DNA of 64,000 nucleotides from Parelaphostrongylus tenuis (lineage: Eukaryota > Nematoda > Chromadorea > Rhabditida > Metastrongylidae): the NCBI GenBank assembly GCA_019055375.1, contig JAHQIW010007187.1, forward strand, positions 124,001-188,000, in the 5' to 3' direction. Every line of letters starts with the position of its first letter. The first letter of the stretch is position 1. Positions 9,001 to 63,479 of this stretch are shown here, one piece after another. A program made the position numbers and the translations under genes. Under the pieces are notes generated by a model. The model did no database searches. It was given only the letters and a program-made list of their open reading frames with translations, and had not been told where the DNA came from.

Positions 9001-12000
9001 TGAAGGAAGCAGTAGTGCCAGTGTAACGGCAATAACTAAGGGAATATATAGAGCACATATCTAAAAACAACCTAACTACTCAGCTAGGTACACTGGTTAT
9101 GATGAAAAACCTCCCAAGGCAAAAACAAGTAATTTTGTCCCATAAACGAAGAAAAAATCTCACACATTAATTATCGCTTCTGCTTTGGAATAACAAATAT
9201 CGTAAACAGGCTAGTTCAGTAAGATTCATACATAATATTCAATTCTTTTACTTTTTACCACTCCTAGCAAAAAAAAAATGCATAAAAGTGGATTTGACAT
9301 ACGAAATTAACTCACATTATTTGCAGCAAATATGGTAACAACAATAAATACAATCTTGGTTATATGAATTTCCGTTATTCGCCAAATCAATTCGACTGCT
9401 CGATTTATAAATTCACTTGTTCGTGCTGACAGAGAACCCTCTGAAAAAATCATTGACAAAAAATGACCGGCTATAGGAAAAATGCTGTGAAAAAGAAAAA
9501 CAGTTGGAAGTGGCACTGGTCACCACTGTTACCTCATTTATGTTATTCTCATTGTCTAAACTAAACAGATTAGTTCATATAAAATATTTATTTACAATGA
9601 AATATTGTGGTGCCCGCTAAAAGGACCACTTAAGTGTTCATTAATACCTATTTATTCAGTAGTAGTATGAAGCAATATTATAAAAACTATAAACTTGATG
9701 CATATATAAACATTCTAGAAAAAAAAGCATTCGAAGAAAACCTCACCACTTCTTTTAGTTGTTGGCATAAACTACATTCGTTGGTTAGGCAATGAAAACT
9801 TGCAGTTATCGTTCATAACGCTGTCATCGCAATTATTTCAACCAGTTCGGGAAATTTACACAGCTGTATAAGTAGGTATACATTGATGGTTAAATCGAAT
9901 GACTTCATCAATGGATTTCACAGACTGCTTCAAGCATTTAAGCTCGTTGCCATTGAAATAACATTTTTTGAAAAGATTTTCGCATAGAAAAACGATGCAA
10001 TTCGCGATTTTTCCTTGAAAATTCGATAACCTATTTTCATGTACTGTTGAGCTGATATAGGGTTTTTCAGATTTTCCAATGTGGCTAACGGTTTGCTACC
10101 TTCTTCGTCTGGAAAAACCTCAGAATCGAATCAGATTTTTCATATAACTATTCGTTGCAATGTTTTATAGCTTCGTAGCCGCTTCAATTCGAAACCAGTA
10201 AAATAGGATACTGCACGAATTATTCAAAAAGTTATTTTATTAGTTCGAAGAAGTCGTAACTATTCCTAGTGAGATTAAAAGAAAGCCGATTTTCGGAAAA
10301 ATAACTTTGAAATAGATTCAACTCAAAAACAATTCCCACTCATAACAAAAGGGATCGCGGTCCGTCAACTCGCAATCCTTGACAGCTGTCTAACTATTAG
10401 GACAAATACGTGATGACACCAATAACGAACTTGAGATAGTTCGAAATCTCCAGACTATTCTAACAAACCCGAAGCCTCTTTCATATCGTACAGTCAACAA
10501 CTCACCCCAAGGTTTCTGGCGCCTCTCATTATTTACAAACGGTCTCGCTGTGATGATAGGCGTTGTCATATCATCCTGATCAAGGTATGGAAAACTGTCG
10601 ATTTCTGAATTTATCCAGCTCACCACTGTAGACCTCATCTCAAGTGGTGCCGTCTTTTTTGTTTTGATCACTAATTTTGGTTCTCGGCCTCTTCTTCTTT
10701 CAACGGAAGATGTCAAGCGATTGAAATAATAGTCAAGAATATGAACAAGTTCGGCGTACATAATCAGAACAAATGAATGTGAAGAGCACACACGTAGTAA
10801 AGTGTAGTCAGATTTGTAAATGAATCATGTATACGACATGTACTCCTCGAGTATTTATAGCGAATAAATAATGTCTTTACACTACATTACAGTGGAATTG
10901 CGTGCATAACACCTGTGAGTCTTATCTAAAACAACAGTGAAACCATACATCCATAAGCAGAGGCTGCCTCTCCCTTGGGAATAGACCCCAAATGATCTCA
11001 AGGAACAAAATCTTCTCCTCCACGACTTCCCCATAATTTCCCATATATACATTCGGTAACAACAAATTGATTTTTCATAGTGCGATCAAATCTAGTAAAG
11101 CAACTAGACAGCAATAAGAAGATCTCAGTACACTCCTTTTTCTTTTACACTAGAAGTTTTGTGAGAACCAGGATTATACTGAAATGATAAAATCCAAGTA
11201 TACTCTTTGCTCTTACAAAACTTCTTCTTTTATTAGGTGGACAAATCGACCAAATACCGGCGTGAAATCAGCTTCAGACAAAACCAAATTTGAAAAAACG
11301 TAACAACTGTTTCAAGACGTGGAAACTATTGATTTTCAACTCAAAATTTGGTTTCGAGGATGAATGTCAGATTTGAAATTTAATCTTTGTATTAACTGTT
11401 TTAGCAATCTTTCGTGCTATTCATGTCATGGCATAGCACATTTTGTGCACTTTCGCTCCGTAGTACTGGACACTAATGTAAATTAAGCTGTTAGCAGATT
11501 TTTAAAGTGGCATTCTGAATACAAAAACGGCAACTTCAACAAATCTATTTCTACGAGCTCAAAGTCGGTGGCAATAATCTCGAAACGCCAAAGAGCTATA
11601 AGGCCAAAGAAGCATTAGCGAAGGCACAGTTATCGTCGTTTCAAAAATATTCGCCGTCACGAATTTGAATTAGGGAATTCGAGGACATCTACACCCATTG
11701 ACGACAATGAATTGAAGAGTTTTTTGGGACGAAATACACGCACAACTACTCAAAAGTGGGAAGAAATTCCACAAATGAATGTCGCACGAACTGAATAACA
11801 ATGAATGAAATCGCTGGTTTGAGGCAATATCAGCGCTTCTCCTGTGCACAAACGACCTGTTTCCCGATCGTATTGTAAAGTTCGACGAGAAATGGATAGT
11901 TTATAATTGTCGGTGACGATCTGTTCAGTGACTGGATGGCGATAAAGCCCCCGCAGAACTTTCTAGAACCGAAATTGCGTCAACAGAAGGCCATATCGAG

Positions 12001-32500: not shown

Positions 32501-35481
32501 GAATACTACAACCACAACGAACGAGGTTAGTGAAGCAACAAAAGCGATTATCTCAGGGAGAATAGTCAACGCGGAACGAAGTCCAGCCATCGGGTGAAAT
32601 CTTAAAATATTGTACGATCAGATATAACGTTTCGAATGTAATCGAAATGAATGAAAAGCAGCGACGTTAAATATTTTACAGTTCTTTTGAAGATTCACAG
32701 AGACATATCGTACATCTAGTCTGTACAAAAGCGTTGCTGGAAGCAGGACGAATATAGTTATTCAAACACACATTTCCTGGACTTCTCGTAACACATTCCA
32801 GCTCTACTGTGACATTTCAATTTCCAGAACTTTTCAAAGAACTATGAGAGGCGAAGATTACTCAATCCTTTGACGACGGCAGCTGAATCGTTGCGCGCAG
32901 CGTGATCTTCGCTGGTTAGGGTCTATTTCTTATAAAGGGAAAGCTCTCAGTATTGATCAATTTCTAGGAGAAACACCTTGCATTCGACTTCAAAAATTGC
33001 TTCGTTTGAGGTGATTGTGTGCATATCTGGCCTACACACCAAAAATATATCGAGTCAGTGTTGCTTATCCATTCAAACAAGTTTGATATCAATTTACCGA
33101 CTCCAGAGGTATTGATGGTATGAAGAGCCATGGGCACGAAATCGAACCATCGACCTTGTGCCTGACTCGTAGCATTCGACACGCGCTTGTGAGCGCCATG
33201 GCCGAGAAGTTGCAATATTCGCCACTGCGCGTGTGAACCAAGCCCCAGCCCCCCCCCCCCCCCCCTCATGCCCTCCGGCAGTCGACAACGAACGTCCTTA
33301 CGGAACGTCACAGCCAGGCTATCCTCGAGATTACAAGGAGACGTGCTCAACCAGTATTCTACGACGTTCAAGAAAACGAAAAACGAACTGAGCGCTAGAA
33401 GTACTGGGTCCGCACAGTGAAAAAAAAGCACTGCGAAGACGGATCAATAAAATGTCAAAAGGGTTTTTTTCGCCGTTTTGTGAAATTCTCAAGTTTCGTA
33501 TATAACTTCGATGTTCCACGATCTACTTTATACAATCATATATTTTTGGTGCATATATCACTCTTAGACGCGGAGAAAAATGCCTGGGTGAAACTTAATC
33601 TTCTTTCCGTTATTACAGAGTACTCTGAAAGCCTTTTTAAAAAACTAAACTCGGTTTCGAATTGCCACTTTTCAAGCAATTGAATAACTGTTATAAGTAT
33701 CGAATCTTTTCCAATCTCGCAATAAACATTCACTACAATTCTCAAGAATGTTTACACCCTTACCGATATTGTTACGCCAGAGCCATAAACGTGTTTCGGA
33801 GATTTCACCCTCTTCGTCAGTGGCGCACACCCCACATTAAGCCCTGCACTGAAGCAAGGAGGGAGGCGTATGTCGCGACAGTACGCCGAAACACGTGTAT
33901 GGCTCTGGCGTAACAACCTCGTTAAGGCTTTAAACATTCTTAAGAATTATGTTGATTGTTATGACTATGATCGAGAAGCTTTATCCGGCGGGAATCCAGG
34001 TAAGCAGAATACACGAAGTGAATCCACGTAACACACGCCGTCCACAAAAAGTTAAGAAATCAATTTGCATTTGAAATGTCTTACTCATAACAAAATGAAA
34101 TGATAACCTCACAAATCCAGCGTATCGAAGCCACTTCACACTAGTATCATTACACCTTGCAATATACTCTTCTTCACTTGGAACCGTCACAGCTTCAAAT
34201 ATCTGGTAGATTATCATTCCAGTGGTAGTTAGAAGACAGTAAAACGCGCATGCCACTGAGTGCAGTCGTATACTTACTGGAAAAATGGAAATTTACATTG
34301 ATTTTCGAATTACACTGCATTGCTAACGATCCACATCGTCAGCTAAAGAAGCATACTGAATACTGATAATTGATATAGGATAAAAATTGTTCGAAAAAGA
34401 GCCCAAACACTAAGGAATCTAATAAAAAAAAAAACAGTCAGATGTAACGCGAGCTGACGACCGTTAGCATGGAAAACTTAAGGCTAAAGAACATGCCAAT
34501 AAAGTTATTCAGATGTTAGGAACATACGAAGTAGCCAAACTTGGGAAGAAAACTTTTGATATGGTACCTGGCAGGGGAAGGGCCGGATGGATGGTTGGAA
34601 GTACAGGACTCAGCAGAGCGAAGCACACGTAGATCACAGAGATGAAACATGGCCGTATAAATGCAGCTGAAAATTTGTTCAATATATTACCTAATGGATG
34701 TAGAATTTTTGTTTCATGTATTGTAGATATACTAGGAAATCCGAACATTCATTGGTGACTCTTAACCCTCTCGGGAGCGTATGTAATCAATTGGTAACAC
34801 TATTTATAGAGAACTTTTTCGCTGGGAACATATTTTTCTCACTAGACTTTTTGTAATCACTCGAGAGCTTGAATCTCGGTGATTTGAATACTGTGCTTGG
34901 TTTCTGAGCAGGCCTTCTTAGCGTGATTTAACAGCCAAGAGAAAATTTGTGTCGCCTTTGGCGCGTATTTTTTCCATGGCCGGCGTCTGAGTTCCAATTT
35001 TCACTTAACTTTTAGGTCTCATTAGATAGCTTAGATCTTGCTTATTCCGAAACCCGTTTCAGATATTGAACTGGTATTCGATGAGCGCTGTAAAAGCAAA
35101 AAAGAATACTATGTTTCACAATTTGAGTTCCATACGCACATATGAATTATGTACGAATGGAGACGTATGTAGAAAATCATTGGCATCAAAATAACACGGA
35201 AACCTCAGGATATTGTATCCAAAATGGACAAAAAAAAACTTCCAATTGAATAACGAAAATCGCGCGCTGAAAGTGATCAGTCGCAGTCTCCACAAAAATC
35301 AACAAAGTACTCTGACTGACCTCTCCAGACTAAACAGATAATGAGCAGCTGACGACTCAATAACCATACTAGCTCCTAGATCAATTAATCAATGGAAATA
35401 GTCCGAGAACTCACCAAAAAGTAACGACAGAGGCAAAATACCACGATAGAAGAGGCATTTGACAAACGGCGCCACCATCAT
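1..35481 (-). CDS. pezo-1: Piezo-type mechanosensitive ion channel, 5' half (36 exons, 3' end outside the window)
   Basis: Piezo proteins form trimeric, stretch-gated cation channels in the plasma membrane. Exons, 5' to 3': 35481-35415, 34666-34568, 34276-34108, 32600-32436, 32372-32264, 31804-31700, 31634-31537, 31459-31351, 30041-29943, 27357-27292, 26673-26559, 26494-26391, 26245-26117, 25481-25347, 19560-19508, 19394-19289, 19144-19022, 18917-18813, 16369-16278, 15744-15608, 10625-10506 (start unsure), 9440-9316, 9060-8926, 8849-8733, 8622-8524, 7563-7462, 6741-6644, 6580-6477, 4993-4842, 4738-4631, 4549-4443, 3946-3795, 3723-3638, 3090-3023, 2936-2773, 26-<1. All junctions are GT-AG and phases match throughout, apart from the linker at exons 20-21 and single extra bases in exons 30 and 35. 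About 1,307 codons are present; the family is usually about 2,400-2,550 residues. Family signatures include [34 protein letters not shown] and [11 protein letters not shown]. The pore and C-terminal domain are missing because they lie beyond base 1. Confidence 0.95.
1096..1345 (+). repeat. tRNA-derived SINE family A, copy 1
   Basis: This copy shares a body of about 150 bases with copies at 33190, 51236 and 63150. The shared order is CAACAAGAACGCC, an 'AAGATTAYRAGRAGAC' block, 'CTCRACCAGT.TTCTACG', GAAAAACGA and a tail of the ATAAAGTG type. The head (GAGTGGTAGTGATGC) resembles the A box of a tRNA. It is the most diverged of the four. Confidence 0.7.
1867..2200. repeat. TA/TATG microsatellite
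   Basis: Long runs of TA alternate with ATGTATGT and CATACATA stretches. Open frames on both strands here are artefacts of the repeat. Confidence 0.9.
2773..4549 (-). CDS. pezo-1: pezo-1 exons 31-35, exon 35 frameshifted
   Basis: Exon 31: [18 protein letters not shown]. Exon 32: [18 protein letters not shown] and a long helix ending KVALQ; its acceptor is TTACAG at 3946, since the longer upstream open frame would duplicate residues. Exon 33: [15 protein letters not shown]. Exon 34 (3090-3023): [15 protein letters not shown]. Exon 35 (2936-2773): [20 protein letters not shown] in one frame, then [19 protein letters not shown] in the next. Exon 35 has 164 bases where 163 are needed. The coding strand has six T in GTTTTTTCAAATTCG where five would keep frame (about 2848-2855), and the unshifted frame stops at TGA close by. 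Vertebrate Piezo1 has the same order (AGIIWDSVCFFFLLLQRRVF). Confidence 0.88.
3169..3573. mobile_element. palindromic MITE in pezo-1 intron 33 carrying a hammerhead motif
   Basis: Terminal inverted repeats of about 45 bases: TAATCTGGTAACTTATTTCAAG on the left against TAATCTGATAGCATATTTCAAG on the reversed right end, then GCCTTTCATGARGTCTAATAT in both. TA flanks both ends. It makes up 405 of the 547 bases of the intron. The right arm holds an intact-core hammerhead (3471-3517). The left arm holds a decayed reverse copy with GACGCGCGTC followed by TAGCAC. Confidence 0.85.
3471..3517 (+). ncRNA. hammerhead ribozyme motif, type I, intact core
   Basis: In order: GTGTGCTA (stem I, 5' strand), CTGATGA, stem II GGC/GCC around an 11-base loop, GAAA, a tiny stem III ACG/CGT with a two-base loop, then GTC as the cleavage triplet (cut expected after 3514) and TAG. 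Only CTA/TAG pairs directly in stem I of this copy. The opposite arm of the element still has TAGCAC, which would pair with GTGCTA perfectly, so the ancestor had a full stem I. The small stem III with GAAAC and CGUC resembles the Schistosoma satellite hammerhead. Confidence 0.75.
4631..4738 (-). CDS. pezo-1: pezo-1 exon 30, with an apparent +1 frameshift
   Basis: The exon enters in phase 0 ([13 protein letters not shown] follows LLLASCQ, like 'QVFSAER' in Piezo1) but must leave in phase 2 ([11 protein letters not shown] joined to SFVDFIKIG, like 'NPIPNFIHCRSYLDMLK'). Its length of 108 is one base too long. The entry frame hits TGA at about 4645. The shift must lie between, in an A-rich stretch (coding strand CTCAAACCAAAACAATCC, about 4650-4667). 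Removing one A would restore the frame. No internal intron is possible there. Confidence 0.8.
4842..7563 (-). CDS. pezo-1: pezo-1 exons 26-29: most conserved blade block
   Basis: Exon 26 (7563-7462) encodes [18 protein letters not shown] and FGFFKFGLE. Exon 27 (6741-6644) encodes [20 protein letters not shown]. Exon 28 (6580-6477) encodes [19 protein letters not shown] then [10 protein letters not shown]. Exon 29 (4993-4842) completes [12 protein letters not shown] and runs to [12 protein letters not shown]. Together these match the vertebrate order FFYKFGLE, MNFLVTLHG, LYQYLLCLG, YPW and DFLLLLCASQ, which makes the family call secure. Intron 26 carries a TTAA-type MITE and intron 28 an internally deleted mariner. 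Confidence 0.95.
5033..6410 (+). mobile_element. internally deleted mariner-like element in pezo-1 intron 28
   Basis: The left end (GTTCCGTTAGTTTTGGCACT, then a run including GTGATTAAAACTACATGACT to about 5150) is an inverted match to the right part (about 6330-6400, TTCGCAAAAAATGCTCAATTG and AATTATGCAGCTTCA). Between them a plus-strand fragment at 6057-6240 reads [20 protein letters not shown] and [14 protein letters not shown], the N-terminal helix-turn-helix of a mariner transposase. The catalytic domain is absent. The same family recurs at 48.55-49.39 kb. Confidence 0.75.
6775..7354. mobile_element. TTAA-type MITE with CCCTTTCGGTA termini, copy 1 (pezo-1 intron 26)
   Basis: The left end is ACCCTTTCGGTACCACACGC and the right end is the inverse of GCGGTATCGAAAGGG. 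The inner left sequence (TTCGCC, then CACGCGGCGCGATCAACC) matches the inner right end of the copy at 31858-32237, so the two are one family. The flanks TTGA and CTAA look like decayed TTAA target sites, as in piggyBac-related elements. No transposase was seen. Confidence 0.7.
7564..8523. other. pezo-1 intron 25: tRNA-like fragment, otherwise nothing recognised
   Basis: At about 8334-8385 a fragment (GCAAGCGCTCTAGAATTGG, AAGAGTTCAACTCCCGCC) resembles A and B boxes of a tRNA-derived repeat. TCCTGTTCTGCTATCGCT just before it recurs at 47.57 kb. Nothing else is recognised. Confidence 0.4.
8524..10625 (-). CDS. pezo-1: pezo-1 exons 21-25
   Basis: Exon 21 (ending at 10506 with a GTGAGT donor) encodes a hydrophilic linker ([18 protein letters not shown]). 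Its 5' end is uncertain: a CTACAG acceptor at 10625 fits the phase, but the frame stays open upstream to about 10800 without a good acceptor. Exon 22 gives [19 protein letters not shown], equivalent to the 'LLWRFVEIH' helix of vertebrate Piezo1. Exon 23 is a long helix pair ending KMIYQ, a conserved Piezo motif. Exon 24 is extracellular-like, with a CNATG sequon and [10 protein letters not shown], the counterpart of 'WFGV'. Exon 25 is a helix followed by the RQRHSRRMQ basic stretch. Phases at exons 22-25 are 0-0-0-0. Confidence 0.9.
9441..10505. other. pezo-1 intron 21: dispersed intronic repeat
   Basis: The intron holds no gene. The part at about 9950-10330 resembles the dispersed A/T-rich family seen at 28.4, 34.8, 40.8, 52.4, 56.6 and 60.7 kb. 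Confidence 0.4.
11330..12450 (+). pseudogene. degenerate mariner transposase
   Basis: Across several frames the plus strand reads fragments in transposase order. They include a FYELKVGG start at about 11548, [15 protein letters not shown], a [19 protein letters not shown] block, and near the end [10 protein letters not shown] then [11 protein letters not shown], like the RPH and HP.YSPDL regions. There are many stops and shifts. It lies antisense in a pezo-1 intron and cannot make a transposase. Confidence 0.65.
12480..13230 (+). pseudogene. possible dead retrocopy of an unrecognised host gene
   Basis: Between 12540 and 13222 the plus strand reads protein-like sequence in two frames: [57 protein letters not shown], then (shifted) a low-complexity acidic and basic part around 13100-13220. 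There are no introns, and stop codons sit between blocks. The family is unknown. It could be a processed pseudogene or an old transposon protein. It is antisense to pezo-1. Confidence 0.35.
14360..14590. repeat. purine-rich tract with GA microsatellite
   Basis: Almost pure G/A on the plus strand, ending in an uninterrupted GA run at about 14551-14585. The serine/leucine-rich open frame on the minus strand is a by-product. Confidence 0.9.
15543..15573 (-). CDS. pezo-1: possible 31-base pezo-1 micro-exon (uncertain)
   Basis: The stretch is bounded by a TTTTTGATTTAG acceptor and a GTTAGT donor. In phase 1 it reads [11 protein letters not shown]; in phase 0 it reads SSPLCHSC plus two residues. 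Phase 0 is compatible with the upstream GTGAGA donor inside exon 20 and with the CTACAG acceptor of exon 21. It could be a cassette exon or chance; transcripts would decide. Confidence 0.35.
15608..19560 (-). CDS. pezo-1: pezo-1 exons 15-20
   Basis: Exon 15 (19560-19508) finishes a helix ([17 protein letters not shown]) and joins in phase 2 to exon 16, whose product [20 protein letters not shown] is a typical amphipathic blade segment. Exons 17 and 18 are membrane segments ([40 protein letters not shown]). Exon 19 is extracellular-like ([18 protein letters not shown]). Exon 20 is membrane plus linker ([19 protein letters not shown]). A 5.8-kb intron (19561-25346) separates this group from exon 14. 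Exon 20 may end at 15608 (GTACCG, phase 1) or earlier at a better GTGAGA donor within it. A possible 31-base exon at 15573-15543 has good splice sites and could be used with that earlier donor. The linker is therefore unsettled. Confidence 0.88.
16370..18812. other. pezo-1 intron 18: no feature recognised
   Basis: 2.4 kb of AT-rich sequence. Open frames on the plus strand at 17914-18538 were read and show no domain, no splice pattern and no similarity I recognise. A short GC-rich patch at 17690-17710 resembles the inner part of the TTAA MITE. Confidence 0.4.
22170..22360. other. GC-rich patch of unknown origin
   Basis: About 190 bases (GCACCCGGCTAGGCTTAG, GGACTCCAGGGAACAGAAC, TGTTGGGGCCCGCAC) contrast sharply with the AT-rich surroundings. 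No open frame or tRNA fold is evident. It may be a transposon UTR or a structured RNA relic. Confidence 0.4.
23825..24135 (+). pseudogene. RTE-type LINE 3' end, degenerate
   Basis: Read across frames the plus strand gives [35 protein letters not shown], then after a shift the tail equivalent to ATLARDREKWK and ESLNDQRED. This is the C-terminal end of an RTE reverse transcriptase, also present at 42.5, 43.1, 46.0, 46.4 and 58.5 kb. It has stops and frameshifts. Confidence 0.7.
25347..30041 (-). CDS. pezo-1: pezo-1 exons 9-14: cytoplasmic linker and next blade repeat
   Basis: Exon 9 (30041-29943) ends a helix ([17 protein letters not shown]) and begins an acidic, soluble stretch. Exons 10 and 11 (27357-27292, 26673-26559) encode a hydrophilic linker rich in D, P and G ([18 protein letters not shown]) and a basic segment ([17 protein letters not shown]). 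This is a likely cytosolic loop and the most divergent part of the blade. Exon 12 returns to membrane ([20 protein letters not shown]) and exon 13 gives [17 protein letters not shown]. Exon 14 holds QYVCSMNV and [16 protein letters not shown], matching the 'QY' loop plus re-entrant pattern of a Piezo repeat. All junctions keep phase. An open frame at 29727-29915 downstream of exon 9 was not used. Confidence 0.9.
25745..25850 (+). repeat. SINE family B head fragment
   Basis: AAGCGCAGTGGTTAGAGGTG followed by CGTACATCCCTGCTCGGTC resembles the A and B boxes of the SINE family that is fuller at 48050 and 50327. Confidence 0.5.
27358..29942. other. pezo-1 intron 9: degenerate tandem repeats and dispersed repeat
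   Basis: At 28060-28330 a degenerate repeat of roughly 60 bases recurs, with variants of GAACATAAACTAAGGATGG. At 28380-29100 lies a copy of the dispersed family with 'GTGTTTCACACTCCGCGCG'-like blocks. An open frame at 29727-29915 minus ([16 protein letters not shown]) follows a TTTCCTAG acceptor but does not fit Piezo or the phase. Confidence 0.45.
30330..30540 (+). repeat. SINE family B, partial copy
   Basis: GGTTAGAGGTGCCCTGCAT, then TTTTTCCGGGGTCAGCAAATA and AACAGCAACACTGACTTCACA match the order found in the copies at 48050 and 50327. The tail is missing. Confidence 0.6.
31351..35481 (-). CDS. pezo-1: pezo-1 exons 1-8: start codon and first blade helices
   Basis: The start is ATG at 35481-35479, with a second in-frame ATG next to it. 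An in-frame TGA lies 12 bases upstream, so no longer N-terminus is possible without another exon. Exon 1 gives [23 protein letters not shown], the usual first Piezo transmembrane helix. Exon 2 continues with [16 protein letters not shown]. Exon 3 to 4 joins as AGFVR/FHPMAG using a GTTATC donor at 34107; the nearby GTGAGG would break the frame. Exon 6 carries [19 protein letters not shown], exon 7 a YVYQIP motif and exon 8 CEIWWMFW. Intron 5 is almost filled by a MITE. Phases run 1-1-2-2-0-0-2-0. The first exon might be preceded by untranslated exons, which could not be seen. Confidence 0.93.
31858..32237. mobile_element. TTAA-type MITE, copy 2 (fills pezo-1 intron 5)
   Basis: Begins TTAACCCTTTCGACATGAAG and ends CGTTGTACCGAAAGGGTTAA, that is, inverted CCCTTTCG ends flanked by TTAA on both sides, as in piggyBac-type insertion. 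It is 380 bases with the target sites and lies inside an intron of 459 bases. Without it the intron would be about 83 bases, a normal size for the short introns of this gene. Confidence 0.8.
33190..33460 (+). repeat. tRNA-derived SINE family A, copy 2, with C17 tract
   Basis: The head reads GCCATGGCCGAGAAGTTGC, like GTGGCCGAGTGGGTGTGATG at 63158. A run of 17 C (33249-33265) interrupts it, and the body CTATCCTCGAGATTACAAGG follows. The tail is ATCAATAAAATGTC. Just upstream on the minus strand (33110-33200) a tRNA-like stretch ends GGTTCGATTTC. Confidence 0.7.
33739..33949. mobile_element. foldback element with hammerhead-derived arms
   Basis: Arms of about 62 bases are inverted copies: ATTCTCAAGAATGTTTACACC on the left against ATTCTTAAGAATGTTTAAAGC on the reversed right, then GTTGTTACGCCAGAGCC-type sequence in both. 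Each arm contains a decayed hammerhead with CGAAACACGT. It lies in pezo-1 intron 3. Confidence 0.75.
33782..33826 (-). ncRNA. decayed hammerhead motif (left arm)
   Basis: Minus strand order: GCGCCA, CTGACGA, stem II with GAG/CTC (an A/C mismatch next to the core), GAAA, CACGTTTA, TGGCTC. The core bases are present and four stem I pairs remain, but stem III has lost its second pair (G to T). The plus-strand partner at about 33855-33909 keeps GGCGTA/TACGCC, GAAA and CACGTGTA but has lost the CTGANGA box. Neither is likely to cleave. Confidence 0.5.
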
Positions 35482-42449: not shown

Positions 42450-43170
42450 CTTCCACCGACCCGTTGGCCAGATTTCTTCACGAAAGCTGTAGAAGAGAGA
42501 TATGATGCTCAGCGAATCCCCATAGAGAGGAGGACCCACTGGGCTACTCTTGCACGCGATAAGGAAAAATGGAAGTGTTGCTGGTACCAGTTCGAGTCAC
42601 TCAACGATCAACGGGACGACAGGTGACAGGTGGCACGACTGTTTCGCATGAAACAGAGAAATCAGCCCGCGATTGCTCATAAAGGAAAAGCCGAACAGAA
42701 GCACCCCACGTCCAGGCGTTGCCTCATCGCGGCGCCAGTCAGAAAATATCTGCATCCATAAAATTCGATCCGGAAAGCTTTTTGTGCACATCTGAAGCAC
42801 CGAAAAGGTTGGATCAGTTCTAGGTATCTTGAAGAACTTAGAGTCAGATGCGAAACTTTCCTCAAGAAAAAAAAGAGGCTTTGAAATCAATCATGCCATT
42901 CTACGATGTTATCTGATAGAGCGGGATTTTGCTTGCCATAATGAGTCTCCAGAAAGAAAGCTGGGTAATCAAATACGTACTTATTAGGGGGGAATCATCT
43001 GTATCACTTGTCGTCCCGTTGATCGTCGAGTGACTCGAGCGGGTACCAGCAACACTTCCCTTTTTCCCTATCGCGTGCAAGAGTAGCCCAATGGGTCCTC
43101 CTCGCTATAGGGATTCGCTGAGCGTCATATCTTTCTTCTGATCTTTTCGTGAAGAAATCGGACCAAGGGG
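42450..43170. mobile_element. foldback made of two RTE 3' ends
   Basis: The plus strand at 42450-42626 reads LPPTRWPDFFTKAVEERYDA, IERRTHWATLARDKEKWKCC and FESLNDQRDDR with a stop: the C-terminus of an RTE protein in one open frame. An inverted copy of the same segment lies at about 43005-43165. The roughly 400-base spacer reads nothing clear. Next to the inverted copy, minus-strand 43165-43325 has a protein-like frame (NKILTVDELVNLFPFEEIRS) of unknown origin. Confidence 0.75.
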
Positions 43171-43673
43171 TCGGTGGTCTTCATGCAGAATCTCAGAACT
43201 CCCTCTTTGAGGGATCTCGCCCGAGTAATCGCGAGGGCACCTGGCGCGTCCCCAGGTGGTTTCATTGATCTTATCTCCTCAAAGGGGAATAGGTTGACTA
43301 ATTCATCTACAGTCAAAATCTTATTCAATCCACTGAGGAACCCATGATTATAGAACTATTTTGATGGTCTAAACTGCCATCAAAAATGGAAAAAGCTAAT
43401 AAGATACGAAAGACCTATGGGAGAGGGTTGAAGACATAACGATAGCGATTGGCCATTAGATAACGGGATTCACAAAGAATATTATGAATCGATTAATAAA
43501 TAGAGATGAACGATAAAAATGTAGATCGAGATGAATTAATAAGGACCGTTGAAGATTAGTGAATAGAGAGATCAAAACAGACCATTAAAGAGAGAAGAAC
43601 GATTGAAGATGCCTGATAATCATTTTTTGAGCCACGCATGTCAATGGCCTAACAATGAGGGCTGACTCATAAA

Positions 43674-43716
43674 GCCCGATACACATGTTTCGATCTTGCA
43701 ACCTCGTCACTCGGGC
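43674..43716 (-). ncRNA. hammerhead ribozyme, core mutated (C3 to G)
   Basis: Minus strand order: GCCCGA, GTGACGA, GGTT-GCAA-GATC, GAAA, CATGTGTA, TCGGGC. All stems pair (two G-T wobbles in stem II), but the first core base is G instead of C, a change expected to abolish cleavage. Confidence 0.75.
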
Positions 43717-43928
43717 AGTCACCCTTCCTCGTCTTTTGCCAATCCTGTGTGGGTGCTTCAGTCCCCTCACTAAGAGTTAGCGACACGAACGTTTTACACT
43801 CTATGTCCAGTGAGAATCTCACCAAATACAGCGTGTTGTGCACTCGATTGCTTGTGGCTAGTCGCTAACTCTTAGTGTGGGGACTGGAGCACCCACACAG
43901 GATTGGCAAAAGACGAGGAAGGGTAACT

Positions 43929-43971
43929 GCCCGACTGACGAGATCGCAAGATCGAAACACGTGTATCGGGC
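43929..43971 (+). ncRNA. hammerhead ribozyme, type I, complete
   Basis: Order: GCCCGA (stem I), CTGACGA (matches the CUGANGA core), GATC-GCAA-GATC (stem II closed by a GNRA tetraloop), GAAA (core), CACGTGTA, TCGGGC (stem I). After GAA, the A of the core pairs with the U of GUA and C with G around an ACGU loop, giving a minimal stem III. The cleavage triplet is GUA, so the cut is expected after 43965. Stem I has six Watson-Crick pairs. Nothing in the consensus is violated. Confidence 0.85.
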
Positions 43972-44950
43972 TCTATAATAAGTCAGCCCTCTTTGGTAGA
44001 TCACTGACATGAGTGGCTCAAAAATGATTACCAGGCATATTGAAATTTGAGCTGTGGTCTCAAGAAAGCACTCGAAACGAAAGAAAAGATTGAAGATTAA
44101 AGAGGCAAGAGATCAAAGAAGATTAGTAGAGAACAACTAGTAGATAAGAAGGGAGATCAAAATAAATCGATTGAGAGCGCGAAAAAATTATCGATCAAAT
44201 AGGAAACGGAACAAAGCAGGTCGATAAAGAGGGGAAAGATTAGTGATTAGGGAAAAGAAAGAAGATCACAGTATATCAGTAAAACGAGGAGAAATCGGTA
44301 GAGAGAGAGATCAAAGCAAATCGATAGAGAGGAGAAAGATTAGCAATAGAAAAAAAGATCAAAGTAGATCGATAAAGGGGGGAAAAAACTTAGTGAATAA
44401 GGACGTAGATCAAAGCGGATCAGCATGGAGCGTGGAGAGACTAACGAATAAAGAGAGCAGGGACTGGACTAGTTAAATTAGAAGACGAAAACAACTAGTA
44501 TACAAAAAAGGAGATCAAAATAAATCGATCAACGGAAGAAACTGTGTTAAACGGAGAGGTAAGCCAGAGCAGATCAAAGTGTATCAATATAGAGAGAGGA
44601 TAGATTGGTAGGGAGAGGGGACGTCAAAGAAAGTCAATGAAAAGCGTGGGAAAATCAAAGCAAATCAATAAAAAGCGTGGGAAAATTCGTAAACAGAGAG
44701 GGAAGAGATCAAAGCAGATCGACAAAAAGGAGAAAGAGTTCAAAAATAGAGAGAGAAAAGATCACGGTAGATCACTGAAAGAAGAACAGCAGGTGGTGGA
44801 TGAGGAGGGAGATCATAGCAAATCAATCAATGCTATCGATGAGAAAATCAATCGATGAGGAGAGAAATAGTGTTAAGTAGAAGGAGGGGCGAAAGCAGAT
44901 CAAAGTGGGATCGATAAAAAACCACAGGACACTCTTTACAGTAGAGTGAG

Positions 44951-45520
44951 AGCAACAATCAGTGATACGAGTAATGAACCGACCAACGCCGCCCACTCAT
45001 GTGCAAGGATGCTTTCAGAAAGCTAAAGCTGCGCGTTTGTTCTGGTGTGTTGACCGCAGTTGCGGATAGCCACGTTACAGTATGCGGGAGTGGCCTACGC
45101 TCTTCGAATATTTATTCAGTACTTTTATTCGTACAGTGTGATATTGATCGGTTCACGTGCGATTTATTGATTTTCACACCGATATTGATTGATATCGATT
45201 GAGTTCTACGCGATGCGATCCTCTATACTGGTCAAGAAGGGTGTTTTGGTGCCGAAATTTACATTTATTGGTAGAAATTTTTTCATTCCATTTCGATTAT
45301 TTTCATTTTTTTGGGTTATTTTTCTCCTTCCTTTTCTTTTTCTTCCACTTCTCTTTCTTTGCCGTTATATCCGTTCTGATCATAGTATTGAAATCAGTCC
45401 TTAAAAGCCTAATAGCTTTTGAATAGTGTTTTGAAGGCCATTATGAGTTGGCGGGAATTCTCCGGACTCTCTCGTTTTTGTTGACTATTTTCCATCCAAT
45501 AATCGGTTTCATCTCTTCTA
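44951..45520. other. no gene recognised
   Basis: Two short overlapping open frames at 44999-45426 plus show no recognisable domain. Confidence 0.3.
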
Positions 45521-45527
45521 AAAGAAC

Positions 45528-45690
45528 TGAGTGGTGAGCAAAAATACGACCTCAGGCGGGAGTCGAACTCGCGAACCCCGTGGTGGCACAAATGTACCTC
45601 GGTGGTGTAGTGGTAGCACGCGTCCCCGGTATGTATGGATGAAACGTGGGTTCGACTCCCGCCTGAGGTCGTGTTTTTGCTCACCACTCA
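45528..45690. mobile_element. tRNA-cored palindromic element, copy 1
   Basis: Arms of about 46 bases: TGAGTGGTGAGCAAAAATACG and ACCTCAGGCGGGAGTCGAAC on the left, inverted on the right (45645-45690). The right arm is also the 3' half of a tRNA-like sequence at 45596-45669, with acceptor ACCTCGG/CTGAGGT, D-arm, T-arm GTGGG/CCCGC and B box GGTTCGACTCC. The anticodon loop is 11 bases, so it is not a working tRNA. Confidence 0.75.
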
Positions 45691-45937
45691 ATTCTCTTAG
45701 GAATGTATTTTCCATGTATTTAAGCTTTTGTTTTTACTATTGTTTAGAGCAGCTTCTTGCGGTTGTTTTCGTATATAACACTTATACATTTGTTTTGAGA
45801 TGGAACTGTCACGAAGGCAAAAACGATTGTTGACGTAACATTAGTAACGTTGATTGCTAAACCAGCACTTGGACCCAAACGGTACTTGTGTGGCATCAAC
45901 AATCGCTTTTGCCCTCGGGATAATTAAATCTTAAAAC

Positions 45938-46520
45938 AATTGTATCACCTGTCGTCCCGATGATCGTCGAGTGACTCGAGCGGGTACCAGCAACTCTTCC
46001 ATTTTTCCCTATCGCGTGCAAGAGTAGCCCAGTGGGTCCTCCTCGCTCTAGGGATTCGCTGCGCATCATATCTTTCTTCTAACTTTCGTGAAGAAATCGG
46101 ACCAACGGGTCAGTGGTCTTCCTTTAGAGCGCTTGATGTCCCGAGGAATTCAGTCGGTAACGGCTCTCGTTTATCGGTTTTCGTTGAAGCGCACCACGTG
46201 TCCGGCCCCACCTTAATTTGGTTGGCCTGATATGTAGAAAAAACATTCATAAATTTAGCATATCAGACGACAGCGATGGACGAGAGCCGTTACCGACTGG
46301 ATTCCGCGGGACATCAAGCGCTCTACAGGAAAGACCACCGACCCGTTGGTCCGATTTCTTCACGAAAGCGATAGAAGAAAGATATGATGCTCAGCGAATC
46401 CCCCAGAGCGAGGAGGACCCACTGGGCTACTCTTGCACGCGATAGGGAAAAATGGAAGGGTTGCTGGTACCCGCTCGAGTCACTCGACGATCAACGGGGC
46501 GACAGGTGATACAGGTGATC
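45938..46520. mobile_element. second RTE 3'-end foldback
   Basis: Inverted copies of about 230 bases at 45938-46175 (minus) and 46270-46520 (plus). The plus copy encodes, across a shift, the end of an RTE protein (RPPTRWSDFFTKAIEERYDA). The spacer is about 90 bases. It is the same type as 42450-43170 but an independent event, since the copies differ. Confidence 0.8.
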
Positions 46521-48325: not shown

Positions 48326-48364
48326 ATTCCAAAAAAAACGCGTTCAATGATTATCAATGTTAAG

Positions 48365-48530
48365 CTGGGGATTGGAGCACCCACACAGGATTGACAAAAG
48401 ACGAGAAAGGGTAACTGCCCGACTGACGAGATCGCAAGATCGAAACAGTGTATCGGGCTCTATAAGTCAGCCCTCTTTGATAGACCACTGACATGCGTGG
48501 CTCAAAAAATAATTGCCACGCATATTGGAA
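48365..48530 (+). mobile_element. half copy of the 430-bp palindromic element
   Basis: Corresponds to the right arm of 43609-44038, from GGGGATTGGAGCACCCACAC to TGCCACGCATATTGG, without its inverted partner. It contains a complete hammerhead. Confidence 0.8.
48418..48459 (+). ncRNA. hammerhead ribozyme, type I, complete
   Basis: Order: GCCCGA, CTGACGA, GATC-GCAA-GATC, GAAA, CAGTGTA, TCGGGC. It differs from the 43929 copy only in the stem III loop (AGU for ACGU). All core bases and stems are kept, and the cut is expected after the GTA at 48453. Confidence 0.82.
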
Positions 48531-48546
48531 AATGTTGAAGCTATTA

Positions 48547-49392
48547 AGTGATTCTATGAGTTTTGGCGCCAGAGCAGTAAGCACCAGATTAAAATTGCAT
48601 GACTTTAGTATGATCAAATTGTACATTTTCTCAACCTTAATAGTATTTTTTTACTCGATAATGATAGTATTTTTAGTGCATTTCGCACTTTCATGATGTT
48701 TTAAATATTACTGAGAGGATTGAGTGGTGAGCAAAAACGCTGCCTCAGGCGGGAATCGAACCCACGTTTCACATTGAGATGTTGAAGAATGAGTGGTCGG
48801 GCGAATGTGCCTCAGTGGTGTAGTGGTAGAGCACGCGTCCCCGGATAGAATGAAACGTGGGTTCGACTCCCGCCTAAGGCCGCGTTTTTGTACATTTTCT
48901 TGCAAACATTTTGGTATATAACTTGCCTATACTTGTTCCATGATGGAGCTGTCTTGGAAACAAATCCGTTTGCTACTCATGCACGATTGTTGCGTAGGGG
49001 AAAATGCTAGTGAAGCGGCGCGCAGGATTTAAGAACTTGGACGATGAAACGGTTGCAAAACGAACGGCTAGAAAGTGGTTTGCGAACTTCATGCTGGAGA
49101 GAACAATCAGGAGGATCAGTTGCGTTCGGACCGTCTCATCTCACAGGAAGCTCATCAGTCTTCCGCGCCGCTTCTTAAGCCTTTTCCCCCTACGCGCCAT
49201 TAGTACATGAGTAGGAAGGGAACTTGTTCCCACGACAGCTTCATCGTGGAACAATTGTAGGCTATAGTATACTAAGATGTTCGCAAGAAAATGTGCAATT
49301 GGACGATAGCGAAACATGCAATTTTAATCACTTTTGGTTGATAAATTTGGTGTTCATTGTTCTAGTGCCAGAACCTCTGGAACGACGTAATG
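48547..49392 (+). mobile_element. short mariner-like element with a tRNA-cored palindrome inside
   Basis: Inverted ends of about 100 bases: GAGTTTTGGCGCCAGAGCAG on the left, TTGTTCTAGTGCCAGAACC on the right. A start of transposase at 48942 reads MELSWKQIRLLLMHDCC and, after a stop, KRTARKWFANF. The catalytic part is deleted. A palindrome (48722-48890) has inserted near the left end. Same family as 5033-6410. Confidence 0.75.
48722..48890. mobile_element. tRNA-cored palindromic element, copy 2
   Basis: Inverted arms CTCAGGCGGGAATCGAACCC and GGGTTCGACTCCCGCCTAAG. The tRNA-like core at 48809-48880 is exactly 72 bases: acceptor GCCTCAG/CTAAGGC with one mismatch, and T-arm GTGGG/CCCGC. The seven-base anticodon loop CCGGATA lacks U33. 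The same GAGTGGTGAGCAAAAA flank occurs in copy 1. Confidence 0.75.
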
Positions 49393-49474: not shown

Positions 49475-52400
49475 ATGTCAGATGAATTCTCTTCATTATC
49501 TGGCTTCGACTATACAATTGATAAGACATGGGATGGACTACCAGTGGATCATGATCCGATTCACGTGAAAATGAAATGGCATTTTGCTAAACAAAGAGGA
49601 AAACCTCACAAAAGGGTGATTAAGATCAACTTTGAGGTAATCTTCTTACAGTTATCTTCACTTCCGATTATAGAGTTATGCGTAGAATGTGTTGTTTAGG
49701 CTCCCTTATTTGATGATCCTGAAGCTCCTCCCGATCCTCCAGGGATCCTTCCAGGGGTACGTATTGCGACACTCAAAGTAGATCATATTTCTCTCTTGTA
49801 ATTTTATGAAGCACTGAATTTCTCATCTAATTCAGCTTTTTATATACTGAAACTTTAAGCTATGGGAATACGAAGTGGTCGAGTTCTTTTTTGCAAATAA
49901 TCGCGACCAGTACATTGAAGTCGAAGTTGGACCGCACGGTCACTGGCTGTGTATGCTTTTTGATGGGATTCGGAAACCATTTAATTCAGGCAAATTTTTT
50001 ATTTTCATTTGTTCTCGTCTTGAAGATAAGCACTTCAAAGTCGGTCACAGGTCCGACTTGATTTCAGTCTTTTCAATATTCACTGTTTTTTCGATGGACA
50101 ACCATGAGGCTGTTATTACAGCAATTATCAATCTAACGCTGTCGTTCCGGTACATTAGCCTTTTTCAGATCTTGTAAAACGTGCAACATAGTACACAATT
50201 TGATAGCCCGAAAGATCGACTTTCTGTTAACCTCGGCATCGAAGTCAATTTTTCAAGTGTGAAAAACCCAGCTGTTTCAGCTGGCACGAGGTTGGTAGGC
50301 GGCGGTATTGTAGGTCAAACGCATTGTGCCTCATTGGCTAGAGGAGTCTTGCGGCACACAAGTGGTTGACACTGCGATCCTCGCGTCCAGGGCTCACTAA
50401 ACCTATTTTTCCGGGGTCGCTAAATTTATTACTGAGTTGCCTGGGTGGAAAGCAGCACTGATTTGACACACCCGGTAGGCCACGTCGAGTCATTGTGTGG
50501 CCGTATATGCTTTCAACTGCCTCAAACGATGCTTGATGATGTCGAATGCATGGCGCATCCTTCAGCGATTGGTCAACACTCAGTGCTTTAGAGCTTCAGC
50601 TTGTCACATAGGACAACCTTCTCTGAAACGCTCACCGTTACTGGAAACCGGCCGCACAGACTTCAACATGGCTGAGGAGTATATATGAATCAGATCACAT
50701 TTAGTCTGAGGTATGGCGCCAAGTTACGCATGGCTACAAGAGGCTCCTCTTTCCTTTAATTTTTAGTTTTTGCAGTTTACCTGAAACCCATTGGAATTTT
50801 CACGTTCTCATGCTCTAGATTTTGTCAGATGATAGTGGCTTTCACTTCAAAAGATTCTCCATTTTTCTTCGTGTTGTTCTGTCCAGATTTTTGTGCCAAC
50901 TATAGCGGGTTCTTTCGAATGGATTCATCCGGCGAGGTCAGTGGAGCACATCACCAGCTAGGATAATGGACACTCAGGCTAGCCTACGTATTTTGGACAC
51001 ACCTTCTTCCAGTTTTTGGACTTTATCCTTTTTCTTTTTATGCCTTATACGGCCTAGTGGATTGTTTTGCTTGGCTTTGACTTTGTCAACAGTACGCTTT
51101 TTTGAGGACACAAGGTGGTCTAATCATTTCGCCAATCTTTCCATCCCATATGCCTTACAAGAGACTAGACAAATCGTACCAGGTCCCAAGCAGTCATATT
51201 CTATACCGTTTGGGCAAATAAAGCAGTTCGTCTTGTATGGAAGCACCGTGGCAGAGTGGTTGTAAGCTAGTCACGGGGCTTGTGGAGCTGAGCTCCATCC
51301 AACTCTCTTCGACAGTCAACAACAACGCCCTGTGGAACGCCACATTAAGTTTATCCTCGAGATTACAAGGAGACTCGCTCAACCAGTATTCTACGCCGTT
51401 CAAGAAGACGAACAACGTATTTAATGCCAGAAGTATTAGGATCCGCTCAGTGGAAAAAAATAACACTATGAAGACGGACCAAATAAAGTGTAAAAGATAA
51501 AGTGTTCGTCTTGTATAGACGGTCACGAACTAGCTGATGTCTTAGGTGTTTGGTGGTATCTGGATCACTGGTGCAGATTTTTCTGAACCGGCCTTTCCTA
51601 AGCAACGTTAAATTGCTTCACCTAATTTGGTGGAAATGAAAGGCACAATGAATGGCACTATACTCTGACTCTCTTGATGTGTTGGGTGAAGCTATTATCA
51701 TTCATTGTCGCATTATGGTGTAGACGGCCTGAAGTAGTTGTAATCAGGGATGGGCTGCTCAATAAATCATTCAAAACTGGTGTCCTAGTGAAAAGAATAT
51801 TTTGAGATGTTCGATATATCTGAAAATATCACGCATAGTCCATCGGATCACTTTTTATCTTGCTTTATTTATAACTTCGTTTCTTTAGTTTTAATATCTT
51901 GCCTTAGTTACATCCTATCTGACTATTCAGGAGAGGAGCTGGAACTTGAAATAACCAACAAATTTGTTGGAAATGTGTGGAATTGTGAACTTGAGATACC
52001 GCTTGCTTATCTACCTGGTAGTAAGTTTTATCATTACTTGCTTCTGGTGTTATAAACTTAACCATTTGCCGATTGAATTGCTTATGTAAATGTAGACCTA
52101 AGTTTTATATTACTACTTCACATCCGACTCCTAATTCCGCGAGATATATTCTATTTGTTTCTCCCAATAGACAACTACTAATTTCGAAATTATTTAAGAT
52201 ATAACGAAGTTCAATTCTTTTGCAATACATGGCACTGGAAGCGAGCGAGTCTACGAAGCATTGAGTCCTGTGACTGATGGAAACTATGAGGTCAGTGAGA
52301 ATCTCTTTCTTTGTACCATTGTGAATTAGTTTGCAAAATAATCGCTCCTCACTCTGTCAATCTACCTCTGGTGCGTTCATGCCTTTTTCGCTTCTCTCAG

Positions 52401-54559: not shown

Positions 54560-55570
54560 GGATTGAGTGACATCAGGACCTCTATCTAAACTCAGTTTGC
54601 AGTTTTAGAGATTCTGAAAGAGAGAGGGAACAAAGTTTTTTTTCTGAATACCTATCAAATACAACTCAATAGTATCATACTGTGCGCTGGATGAGTTTTA
54701 TATGGGCCATCGTTCAAAACATACAATACTCCATGAGCATGTTTGCTGTGATGCGGAGTTTAGCTCTTTATTGATATTGGGTCTCAAGTAGAATGTGTCT
54801 AAGAGATTTATTCTAGAAGTACATAGGATAAATAAAGAATCAACTGTCATAGTCCACAAATGCTTTTTCCTGTCAGTATTGTCAGTACGGAACAAGGCTT
54901 CTTAGCAATAAGAGGTCATTCATCGATGCTTAGTCCAGCACACAAATTACTAGTGACAAGACTATAAATAGTAGAAATTGAAGAATTGTTTTACCGATTT
55001 TTCGATTCGTAACTTACTATTGATTTTGTTAATGTAAAAGAATAATTGGCAATCCCAACTACATAAATTTTGCATAAGCAAATGGAAATTTTAATATTCG
55101 CTTTTCTGTGTGTCCACTTCACGCTCTAGGCCAAACAAACGACAACTGACAACAGTCACTCTGAAAGAACTTCATGATGTGTGATCTTCCTACCCTGCGT
55201 ATAGTCTTACATGTTCGGCGTCGATTCCCTATTATAGAGGGCGAGTAGCCGAATGACACAACCTACTGATGAGGCTTGCTGGAAAGTCGGAACGCATGTT
55301 TAGCATTAGAAATGCCATCTTGTTCTCAACACATATCCTACAGTGTAGATTTTTTGAAACTACTATGAAGTTGTTTTTAATAGAAGCTGGAGTTAGCTTA
55401 AAGAGATCGCCCATTCATTGTGCAGAGTAGTTCTTTGAAAAAAGGCAAATGCTGTTTCACATCTTACTGATGTTTCAAACGTTCTACATAGAATATTCAT
55501 TCAACAACGCAGTATATAAAAGAACTGACGATGAACAATAATATATTATTGTACGAACAGCACAGGAGCT
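54560..55570. other. no gene; decayed hammerhead at 55262
   Basis: AT-rich spacer. A decayed hammerhead lies at 55262-55313. A TATA-like box (TATATAAAAG, about 55510) precedes a short open frame at 55574. Confidence 0.3.
55262..55313 (+). ncRNA. decayed hammerhead motif
   Basis: CCTA, CTGATGA, GGCT...AGTC, GGAA in place of GAAA, CGCATGTT, TAG. It is a relative of the 3471 copy (CTACTGATGAGGC shared) with a changed second core box. Confidence 0.5.
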
Positions 55571-63149: not shown

Positions 63150-63415
63150 GTGAAGCGTTGTGGCCGAGTGGGTGTGATGCTCGCAGCAGCGCGCGTGGAA
63201 ACGAGCTCCACCTTTGAATCTTTTGCGGCGGTCAATAAAAACGCCTTATGGAGCGCCAGAGCAAGGCTATCCTCGAGATTACAAGGTGACTCGCTTAATC
63301 AGTATTCTACGACGTTCAAGAAGAAGACGAAAAAGCGAGTTGAACGCTATAATTACAGGGATAGTCACAGAGGAAAAAAAAACACTATGAAAATGGGTCA
63401 ATAAAGTGTCTAAAG
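63150..63415 (+). repeat. tRNA-derived SINE family A, copy 4
   Basis: Head GTTGTGGCCGAGTGGGTGTG; body CTATCCTCGAGATTACAAGG, CAGTATTCTACGACGTTC; tail GGGTCAATAAAGTGTC. Confidence 0.75.
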
Positions 63416-63479
63416 TGTTTAAAATTAGACATTGAAATGCAAGACCTTAGCTGACTAACGCTTGAGCGATTTGTTCACG

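Follow-up and report, generated by a model that had tools for sequence, protein, structure and literature searches.

A type I hammerhead ribozyme motif in a nematode palindrome and its probable origin in retrozymes mobilised by Penelope-like elements

The hammerhead motif and element A

Within a 64,000-nucleotide stretch of the genome of the nematode Parelaphostrongylus tenuis (called the window), a short sequence at positions 43929–43971 of the plus strand has the appearance of a complete hammerhead ribozyme. An earlier reading made from the letters alone (the sequence-only reading) described it as a type I hammerhead inside a nematode palindromic repeat, and inferred that the repeat family spreads or is processed as self-cleaving RNA. 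The locus raises three questions: whether the motif is a genuine hammerhead, what type of element carries it, and how such elements come to be arranged as palindromes.

As read from the sequence, the core is complete, with CUGACGA (C3–A9) and GAAA (G12–A15.1). Stem I consists of six base pairs (GCCCGA/UCGGGC), stem II is GAUC-GCAA-GAUC and carries the usual G10.1-C11.1 pair, and stem III is formed by A15.1-U16.1 and C15.2-G16.2 enclosing ACGU. The cleavage site is GUA (H17 = A), placing the predicted cut at 43965/43966. The proposed complete hammerhead, with its core, six-pair stem I, GATC/GATC stem II closed by GCAA and GUA site, is thus what the sequence contains, and the features of the type I class (CUGANGA/GAAA core, NUH site, three stems, open stem I) are all present in it. 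When 461 bases (43600–44060) were searched with RF00163, the Rfam model of the type I hammerhead, the match spanned the full 45-position model with a score of 27.7 bits (E 9.5e-5 for 461 bases and 4227 families), which lies below the curated gathering cut-off of 34 bits. Whole-window Rfam scans, at the gathering cut-off and at a permissive setting, did not return the hammerhead at 43929–43971, and speed filters are the presumed cause in the permissive scan. In RNAfold predictions, stems I and II appear in the best fold; stem III is absent, three core bases pairing with its loop, and the z score is −2.46, with 5 of 200 shuffles folding equally well. An internal loop is predicted in the extended stem I. 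Judged by its sequence, 43929–43971 is a genuine type I hammerhead motif, for which self-cleavage is predicted.

The palindrome around the motif is real, with 79% identity over 459 bp at 43603–44044, and the element to which it belongs, element A, probably extends over 43611–44087. Its left arm (43611–43784, minus strand) ends at a site designated P2 and has no tail. A centre (43785–43860) separates it from the right arm (43861–44087, plus strand), which contains the motif, passes P2 (∼44044) and reaches a second site, P1 (∼44084). The resulting P2-to-P1 tail (44045–44087, plus strand) is homologous to that of family M, the best-preserved hammerhead family in this genome; the score of the family M tail on the right arm was reached by 0 of 300 shuffles, and that on the left arm by 123 of 300. 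The candidate target duplication GATTGAAGAT, with copies at 43601–43610 and 44088–44097 (both plus strand), is weak, because the flanks are AG-rich and other 10-mers match too.

When the element A right arm is used as query, copies at several other genomic loci (denoted by L numbers: L035, L043, L021, L008, L046 and L038) stop at 221–224, corresponding to P1. The remaining copies stop at 170–190, corresponding to P2, as do the left arm (184) and a second copy in the window at 48366–48530 (185). The query first ended at 227, and the stops were unchanged when 213 further flank bases were added, so they are not an artefact of the query end; furthermore, the alignment of the family A copy in L035, taken with its own flank, also stops at 44084 of element A. 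Against the rule of a tail on one side, both arms of the family A matches in L044 end at P2-side positions (190 and 188). The only sign of a tandem arrangement in family A is a 319-bp spacing of tail pieces, again in L044.

It is also conceivable that the motif is a chance resemblance or a dead fossil, functionless at this locus. The two arms of element A differ from each other by ∼12%, and the hammerhead motif of the left arm (43674–43716, minus strand) has C3 changed to G and is expected to be inactive. In addition, a transcript of the whole palindrome is predicted to form a long hairpin (−301 kcal/mol) in which the motif is buried, which on this folding model makes the element A locus an unlikely source of cleaved RNA. 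As an account of the motif this remains highly unlikely. Chance is very hard to reconcile with copies above the Rfam cut-off, covariation and the counts described below, and a fossil state of the element A locus alone is compatible with our preferred explanation, that the motif derives from a retrozyme. The sequence-only reading made no mention of the left-arm motif, or of further motifs in the window at 48417–48458 and 3473–3520, nor of those at 55260–55306, 33780–33826 and 33846–33905 that look decayed.

Related hammerheads in the window

A descriptor scan of both strands of the window identified six hammerhead-like sites, three of them with a perfect core, compared with means of 1.45 and 0.075 in 40 Markov-1 random windows. 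Five of the six belong to families A, C and D; the sixth, at 41863, is weak (RF00163 8.8 bits, E 4.7). The second copy of family A (48366–48530, plus strand) is a single arm, 5′-truncated and ending at P2. Its motif (48417–48458, plus strand) has an intact core and a stem III loop one base shorter, and matches RF00163 with 17.3 bits (E 0.12 for 221 bases). The copy sits between imperfect duplications of 10/11 bp (48356–48365 and 48531–48541), which 5 of 3000 random pairs equal in score. A SINE or tRNA origin of the sequence upstream of this copy was considered and dropped, since the probable target duplication bounds the copy itself.

Element C (3165–3613) is an older inverted pair whose right arm has a tail at ∼3569–3613 and whose left arm ends at P2. 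Its motif (3473–3520, plus strand) has an intact core, a GUC cleavage site and an RF00163 score of 24.9 bits. Compared with the family M tail, its right arm beats 300 of 300 shuffles, while its left arm is equalled by 85 of 300. The right arms of elements A and C thus match the family M tail and the left arms do not, so both elements obey the one-sided-tail rule. Element B (33725–33960) is a palindrome with decayed hammerheads at 33780–33826 (minus strand) and 33846–33905 (plus strand), the former of which failed the descriptor and was found by a plain pattern search. No tail was found in element B by comparison with that of family M (204 and 250 of 300 shuffles score as well), and the flanks of elements B and C lack a clear target duplication. 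Family D is represented at 55260–55306 (plus strand) by a hammerhead-like motif that has one core mismatch and looks decayed; it has neither an inverted partner nor an Rfam match, and its score against the family M tail is equalled by 32 of 300 shuffles.

In an alignment of six rows from families A, B, C and D, the hammerhead core is nearly invariant and 7 of the 12 pairs change on both sides. Paired cells amount to 87.5%, compared with 75.2% after shuffling and no more than 38.9% in slid controls, a covariation result that is favoured by the partial selection of the rows on structure. Compensatory changes are also seen among 41 distinct stem I arm pairs, where 4.98 of 6 positions are paired, compared with 3.79 after swapping. 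Together with the perfect core and the end-to-end RF00163 match, these covarying stems bear out the earlier assignment to the type I hammerheads.

Hammerheads across the genome

The genome assembly comprises 481.5 Mb in 5105 contigs. Scoring 74 of 119 811 candidates with RF00163 gave at least 31 matches at E ≤ 1e-3, at least 20 of them above the cut-off; none of the 74 lies on the window's own contig, and 14 control genomes gave 0 matches. The covariance search that had been suggested as a check thus yields a sub-cut-off match in the window and copies above the cut-off in the genome. Fixed-pattern scans of viral and prokaryote collections gave 0 hammerhead matches, none being expected for an animal element, and a protein search with one window open reading frame (ORF) returned nothing at E ≤ 0.001.

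The abundance of these motifs was estimated in 20 stretches (L031–L050; 183 318 bases), which were picked by contig number, unweighted for length. A model built from the window gave 24 matches at E ≤ 0.002, and removal of two mirrored matches in L044 and one already known leaves 21, or ∼1 per 9 kb. This suggests that hammerhead-like copies in the genome are of the order of 5 × 10⁴, a rough figure from a 183-kb sample. Both CTGANGA and GAAA are intact in 13 of the 21. Stretch L044 is mirrored about its middle, with the same motifs at 1117–1699 and 9394–9976 on opposite strands, as would result from an assembly artefact or from inverted duplication on a large scale.

The sample also allows the association with palindromes to be assessed. 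Inverted-repeat arms within 1.2 kb of each other occupy 13 832 of 173 318 bases (L031–L050 without L036), making this a strikingly palindrome-rich genome. Among 21 hammerhead matches in the same stretches (here including the two mirrored L044 matches, neither of which is in a palindrome), four lie in palindromes, against 8% of bases, and 777 of 10 000 random draws reach four. The description of the motif as lying inside a palindromic repeat therefore holds for element A and is not general: palindromes are common among the best-scoring copies and are not a rule.

The nematode origin proposed from the sequence agrees with the presence of exact SL1 22-mers. Stretch L051 contains three exact copies of GGTTTAATTACCCAAGTTTGAG, which we take to be the nematode SL1 leader, and 36 SL1-like matches occur on one contig, all below Rfam's cut-off. 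A tandem array of 568-bp repeats with an SL1-like RNA is found in L051 (G000:C3131), where 5S rRNA is absent at the Rfam curated cut-off.

The repeating unit

Family M (GTGCTACTGATGAGTCC...) occurs in tandem at ∼285-bp spacing in L016, and also in L019 and L021. Its monomer, from predicted cut to predicted cut, is 285 nt, with a GC content of 0.44 in one unit. These properties resemble those described for metazoan non-LTR retrozymes (PMC7229834): small, non-coding tandem units (285 nt is within the published 170–400 nt) that carry a type I hammerhead, have low GC (below 45–50%), are flanked by target duplications of more than 4 bp and share their genomes with Penelope-like elements (PLEs). The arms of inverted elements reach 1.87 units (L010) and single-strand runs exceed three units (L016), which implies that the template was circular or multimeric. 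On the strength of its sequence, the moving unit is a metazoan-type retrozyme, in family M the 285-nt monomer and not the palindrome.

Of 63 motifs with an intact core, 41 have a stem III segment that, loop included, is perfectly self-complementary; seven different sequences are represented, and many of these motifs are from family M. Self-complementarity of this kind is what a dimeric hammerhead requires (PMC3088659). A further hammerhead family (L016 920–1230, L037 695–742, L048 173–220 and L033 7335–7383) has GGGTCA/TGACCC as stem I and ACACCGGTGT as stem III. Its inverted pair in L016 is flanked by an exact 13-bp repeat at distances of 97 and 54, so that here too one end is long and the other short.

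Inverted insertions with a one-sided tail

The arrangement of inverted copies was analysed at 30 loci, those with the best RF00163 matches; L003 and L004 duplicate one another, as do L005 and L006. Where neighbouring motifs lay within 1 kb, their 3′ ends pointed outward in 20 pairs and inward in 6, and both motifs shared a strand in 10. The spacing of outward-facing family M motifs varies from 139 to 520 bp, and so they do not descend from one amplified palindrome. Mapped onto the family M monomer, the arm ends fall into a P2 zone ∼18–58 nt past the cut and a P1 zone at ∼74–100 nt. Among the distinct inverted elements at these best RF00163 loci, 18 of 19 have one P2 end and one P1 end (L003, L005, L007, L008, L010, L012, L013, L014, L017, L019, L020, L022, L023, L025, L026, L027, L028 and L029); the exception is L002 (ends at 42 and 56). 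When these ends were paired at random, at least 18 of 19 was obtained in 34 of 200 000 trials. The tailed arm runs ∼45 nt further along the RNA than the tailless one, the P2–P1 tail being ∼40–50 nt.

Exact direct repeats of at least 12 bp flank 7 of 18 inverted pairs (L004 and L006 omitted), compared with 0 of 304 mismatched pairs; at a threshold of 11 bp the counts are 9 of 18, including one in L027 that lies inside the element, and 5 of 304. Exact repeats were used in place of a gapped-scoring test, which was inflated by the self-complementary element sequence (47 of 420 mismatched pairs scored at least 10). The duplications are often 11–14 bp, with lengths that vary between copies. Repeats of at least 11 bp outside the element lie at unequal distances from the two motifs, 10–54 nt on one side and 82–97 nt on the other, which ties both arms to a single insertion event. 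The palindrome is best read as the trace of an insertion in which both target strands served as primers. Whole-genome-amplification chimaeras were considered as another source of the palindromes and are unlikely, since most arms differ by several to 30%.

Target duplications, 5′ truncation and arms longer than one monomer support an RNA intermediate in the spread of these elements. The part of the sequence-only reading that had the repeat spreading through RNA is strengthened accordingly; the replicating unit that it envisaged, the palindrome, is replaced by the monomer.

Spread as DNA would be expected of a palindromic, MITE-like DNA transposon in which the hammerhead-like stretch is incidental. 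Inverted-repeat arms do make up 8% of sampled bases, and the window contains palindromic pieces that are apparently mariner-derived (naming them partly by eye). Such a transposon should have one shared palindrome centre and equal termini; here the centre varies, with 139–520 bp between family M motifs, and the ends are unequal. Single-arm copies and tandem copies exceeding one unit exist, duplication length is variable, and the core and pairing of the motif are kept across families. We regard a DNA transposon as extremely improbable, and an RNA-templated retrozyme insertion as the better account.

Penelope-like elements as the probable mobilising agent

PLEs provide a precedent for insertion from both target strands. 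A PLE protein is described as cutting and extending both strands and as starting reverse transcription at two neighbouring sites inside the RNA, the 30–40 bp between which form a genomic 'tail' unique to PLEs (PMC11167929). The tails described here are somewhat longer (∼40–50 nt). For Penelope of Adineta, inverted pLTRs arranged head-to-head have been reported, flanked by duplications of 8–10 bp and with one of the two carrying a 31-bp tail (PMC3846280).

Fragments of PLEs are common in this genome, the window included. One, at 51513–51685 (minus strand), was detected by tblastn (E 1.2e-8), and a lone 28-base piece at 50212–50239 (minus strand) matches a PLE 3′ end. An ORF of 303 amino acids in L049 matches GIY-YIG (E 2.9e-4; 21.5 bits, below the Pfam cut-off of 22.6) and has relatives in 6 of the 20 sample stretches, L049 included. 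One of these relatives, in L045, is directly preceded on its own strand by an RVT_1 fragment (E 6.6e-5; 23.1 bits, below the cut-off of 29.6). The two domain matches belong to different PLE copies. A conserved minimal hammerhead occurs in four PLE-bearing stretches, downstream of the PLE coding match on the same strand in L038, L040 and L049, and separate from it in L045. In L035, the one PLE copy examined to the depth of a full insertion signature, the arms are head-to-head (93% over 834 bp) and end 48 nt apart, with an exact 13-bp repeat directly bordering each end. The pattern TATCAG-N32-CAGTCG, common to PLE and family M ends, has 38 matches, mostly in family M, against 5–12 in random sequence; as a link between PLEs and retrozymes it is suggestive only.

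The retrozymes share with PLEs their inverted arms and two 3′ ends separated by a tail. They lack the ORF for reverse transcriptase and GIY-YIG, and a 285-nt unit is too small for one, so that the insertion is PLE-like and the element is not a PLE. Since the one-sided tail has been described as PLE-specific, finding it on hammerhead elements that lack coding capacity provides direct genomic evidence of a PLE–retrozyme link. The motif is therefore probably best explained by a metazoan-type retrozyme that is mobilised by PLEs in a nematode.

In the mechanism that we propose, tandem genomic units would be transcribed and the hammerhead, possibly dimeric through its self-complementary stem III, would cleave the transcripts to monomers (285 nt for family M), which would circularise or remain multimeric. 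A PLE protein would then cut both target strands, and reverse transcription would start on the retrozyme RNA at the internal sites P2 and P1, ∼40–50 nt apart, normally with one site used per strand. Joining of the two outward-facing cDNAs at their 5′ ends would leave a palindrome whose arms are head-to-head, bounded by target duplications and tailed at one end only. A more specific version, which we hold to be about evenly balanced between right and wrong, is that retrozymes, in tens of thousands of copies, parasitise PLEs by means of a PLE-like tail, ribozyme-made circles or multimers, and a different start site for each cut strand.

A LINE, such as a resident RTE, could instead move a retrozyme-type element by twin priming, or the arms could be joined by self-priming. 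The RTE-type LINE at 45941–46513 is itself palindromic with its 3′ ends outward, so head-to-head copies are not confined to PLEs in this genome. Duplications of 11–14 bp would fit LINE integration too, 15-bp duplications have been noted for Nematostella repeats (PMC4918200), and self-priming has been proposed for the head-to-head Penelope copies of Adineta (PMC3846280). However, the RTE 3′ end is, by eye, unlike the element ends. Published work assigns the fixed two-site tail to PLEs alone (PMC11167929), and the resident PLE copy in L035 combines two-site ends with a 13-bp duplication. Self-priming alone gives no expectation of one tailed and one tailless end. We consider these routes unlikely, and mobilisation by PLEs remains the preferred explanation.

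Relationship to known systems

Earlier work has described retrozymes, the hammerheads of PLEs and their tail, and PLEs have been named as strong candidate movers of retrozymes, partly from co-occurrence (Cervera and de la Pena 2020; PMC7229834). The elements described here differ from the retrozymes of that paper in their nematode host ('nematod' is absent from its main text) and in that the best-scoring copies are mostly head-to-head with a one-sided tail (its main text uses 'inverted' 0 times). Like PLEs (PMC11167929, PMC3846280), they occur as head-to-head copies between short target duplications, may be extended at one of the inverted ends and have a hammerhead close by; they differ in being non-coding and in having a stem III of two to four pairs, where PLE hammerheads have a minimal one. 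As in the hammerheads of Schistosoma Sm-alpha and newt satellites (PMC6155905, PMC3088659), the ribozyme is of type I, lies in repeats and has a self-complementary stem III through which a dimer could form; unlike in those satellites, a tRNA head and a large satellite array are absent from the stretches examined.

The published work on an anole PLE counts against the proposal on two points (PMC11167929). Hammerhead mutations left its in vitro insertion unchanged and no reads ended at the cut site. Furthermore, no difference in start sites was seen between its two strands, in contrast to the nearly constant use of a different site at each end in the present elements. As far as a search of titles and abstract openings in the open literature reaches, the occurrence in a nematode and a tail of the PLE type at retrozyme insertions, together with the regular use of one site per strand, are new; that search yielded nothing on nematode retrozymes or on retrozymes with PLE tails. 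The one-sided tail bears directly on which element moves animal retrozymes, and the present analysis adds a nematode with very many retrozyme copies and a nearly strict one-site-per-strand pattern unseen in vitro.

Other repeats in the window

Several other types of repeat occur alongside the hammerhead elements. The 3′ ends of LINEs, presumably of the RTE family as judged from C-terminal residues and the tail, form one head-to-head pair and one tail-to-tail pair (∼370 bp spacer) at 45941–46513 and 42453–43181. Mariner-like fragments lie at 48888–49298, 45784–45945 and 5900–6262; two are palindromic, and the first two were recognised by repeat similarity and by eye. A Pfam search with ten window ORFs gave a single match below 0.001, to the mariner domain HTH_48 (5900–6262), just under the cut-off. 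Predicted tRNA-Thr and tRNA-Ser genes at 45518–45700 and 48707–48890 lie in or beside inverted repeats, which consist of tRNA 3′ halves plus shared flank. A dispersed repeat of ∼200 bp is present in four copies in direct orientation (1098–1308, 33273–33466, 51240–51495 and 63152–63420), and the copy at 51240 lies next to a PLE fragment.
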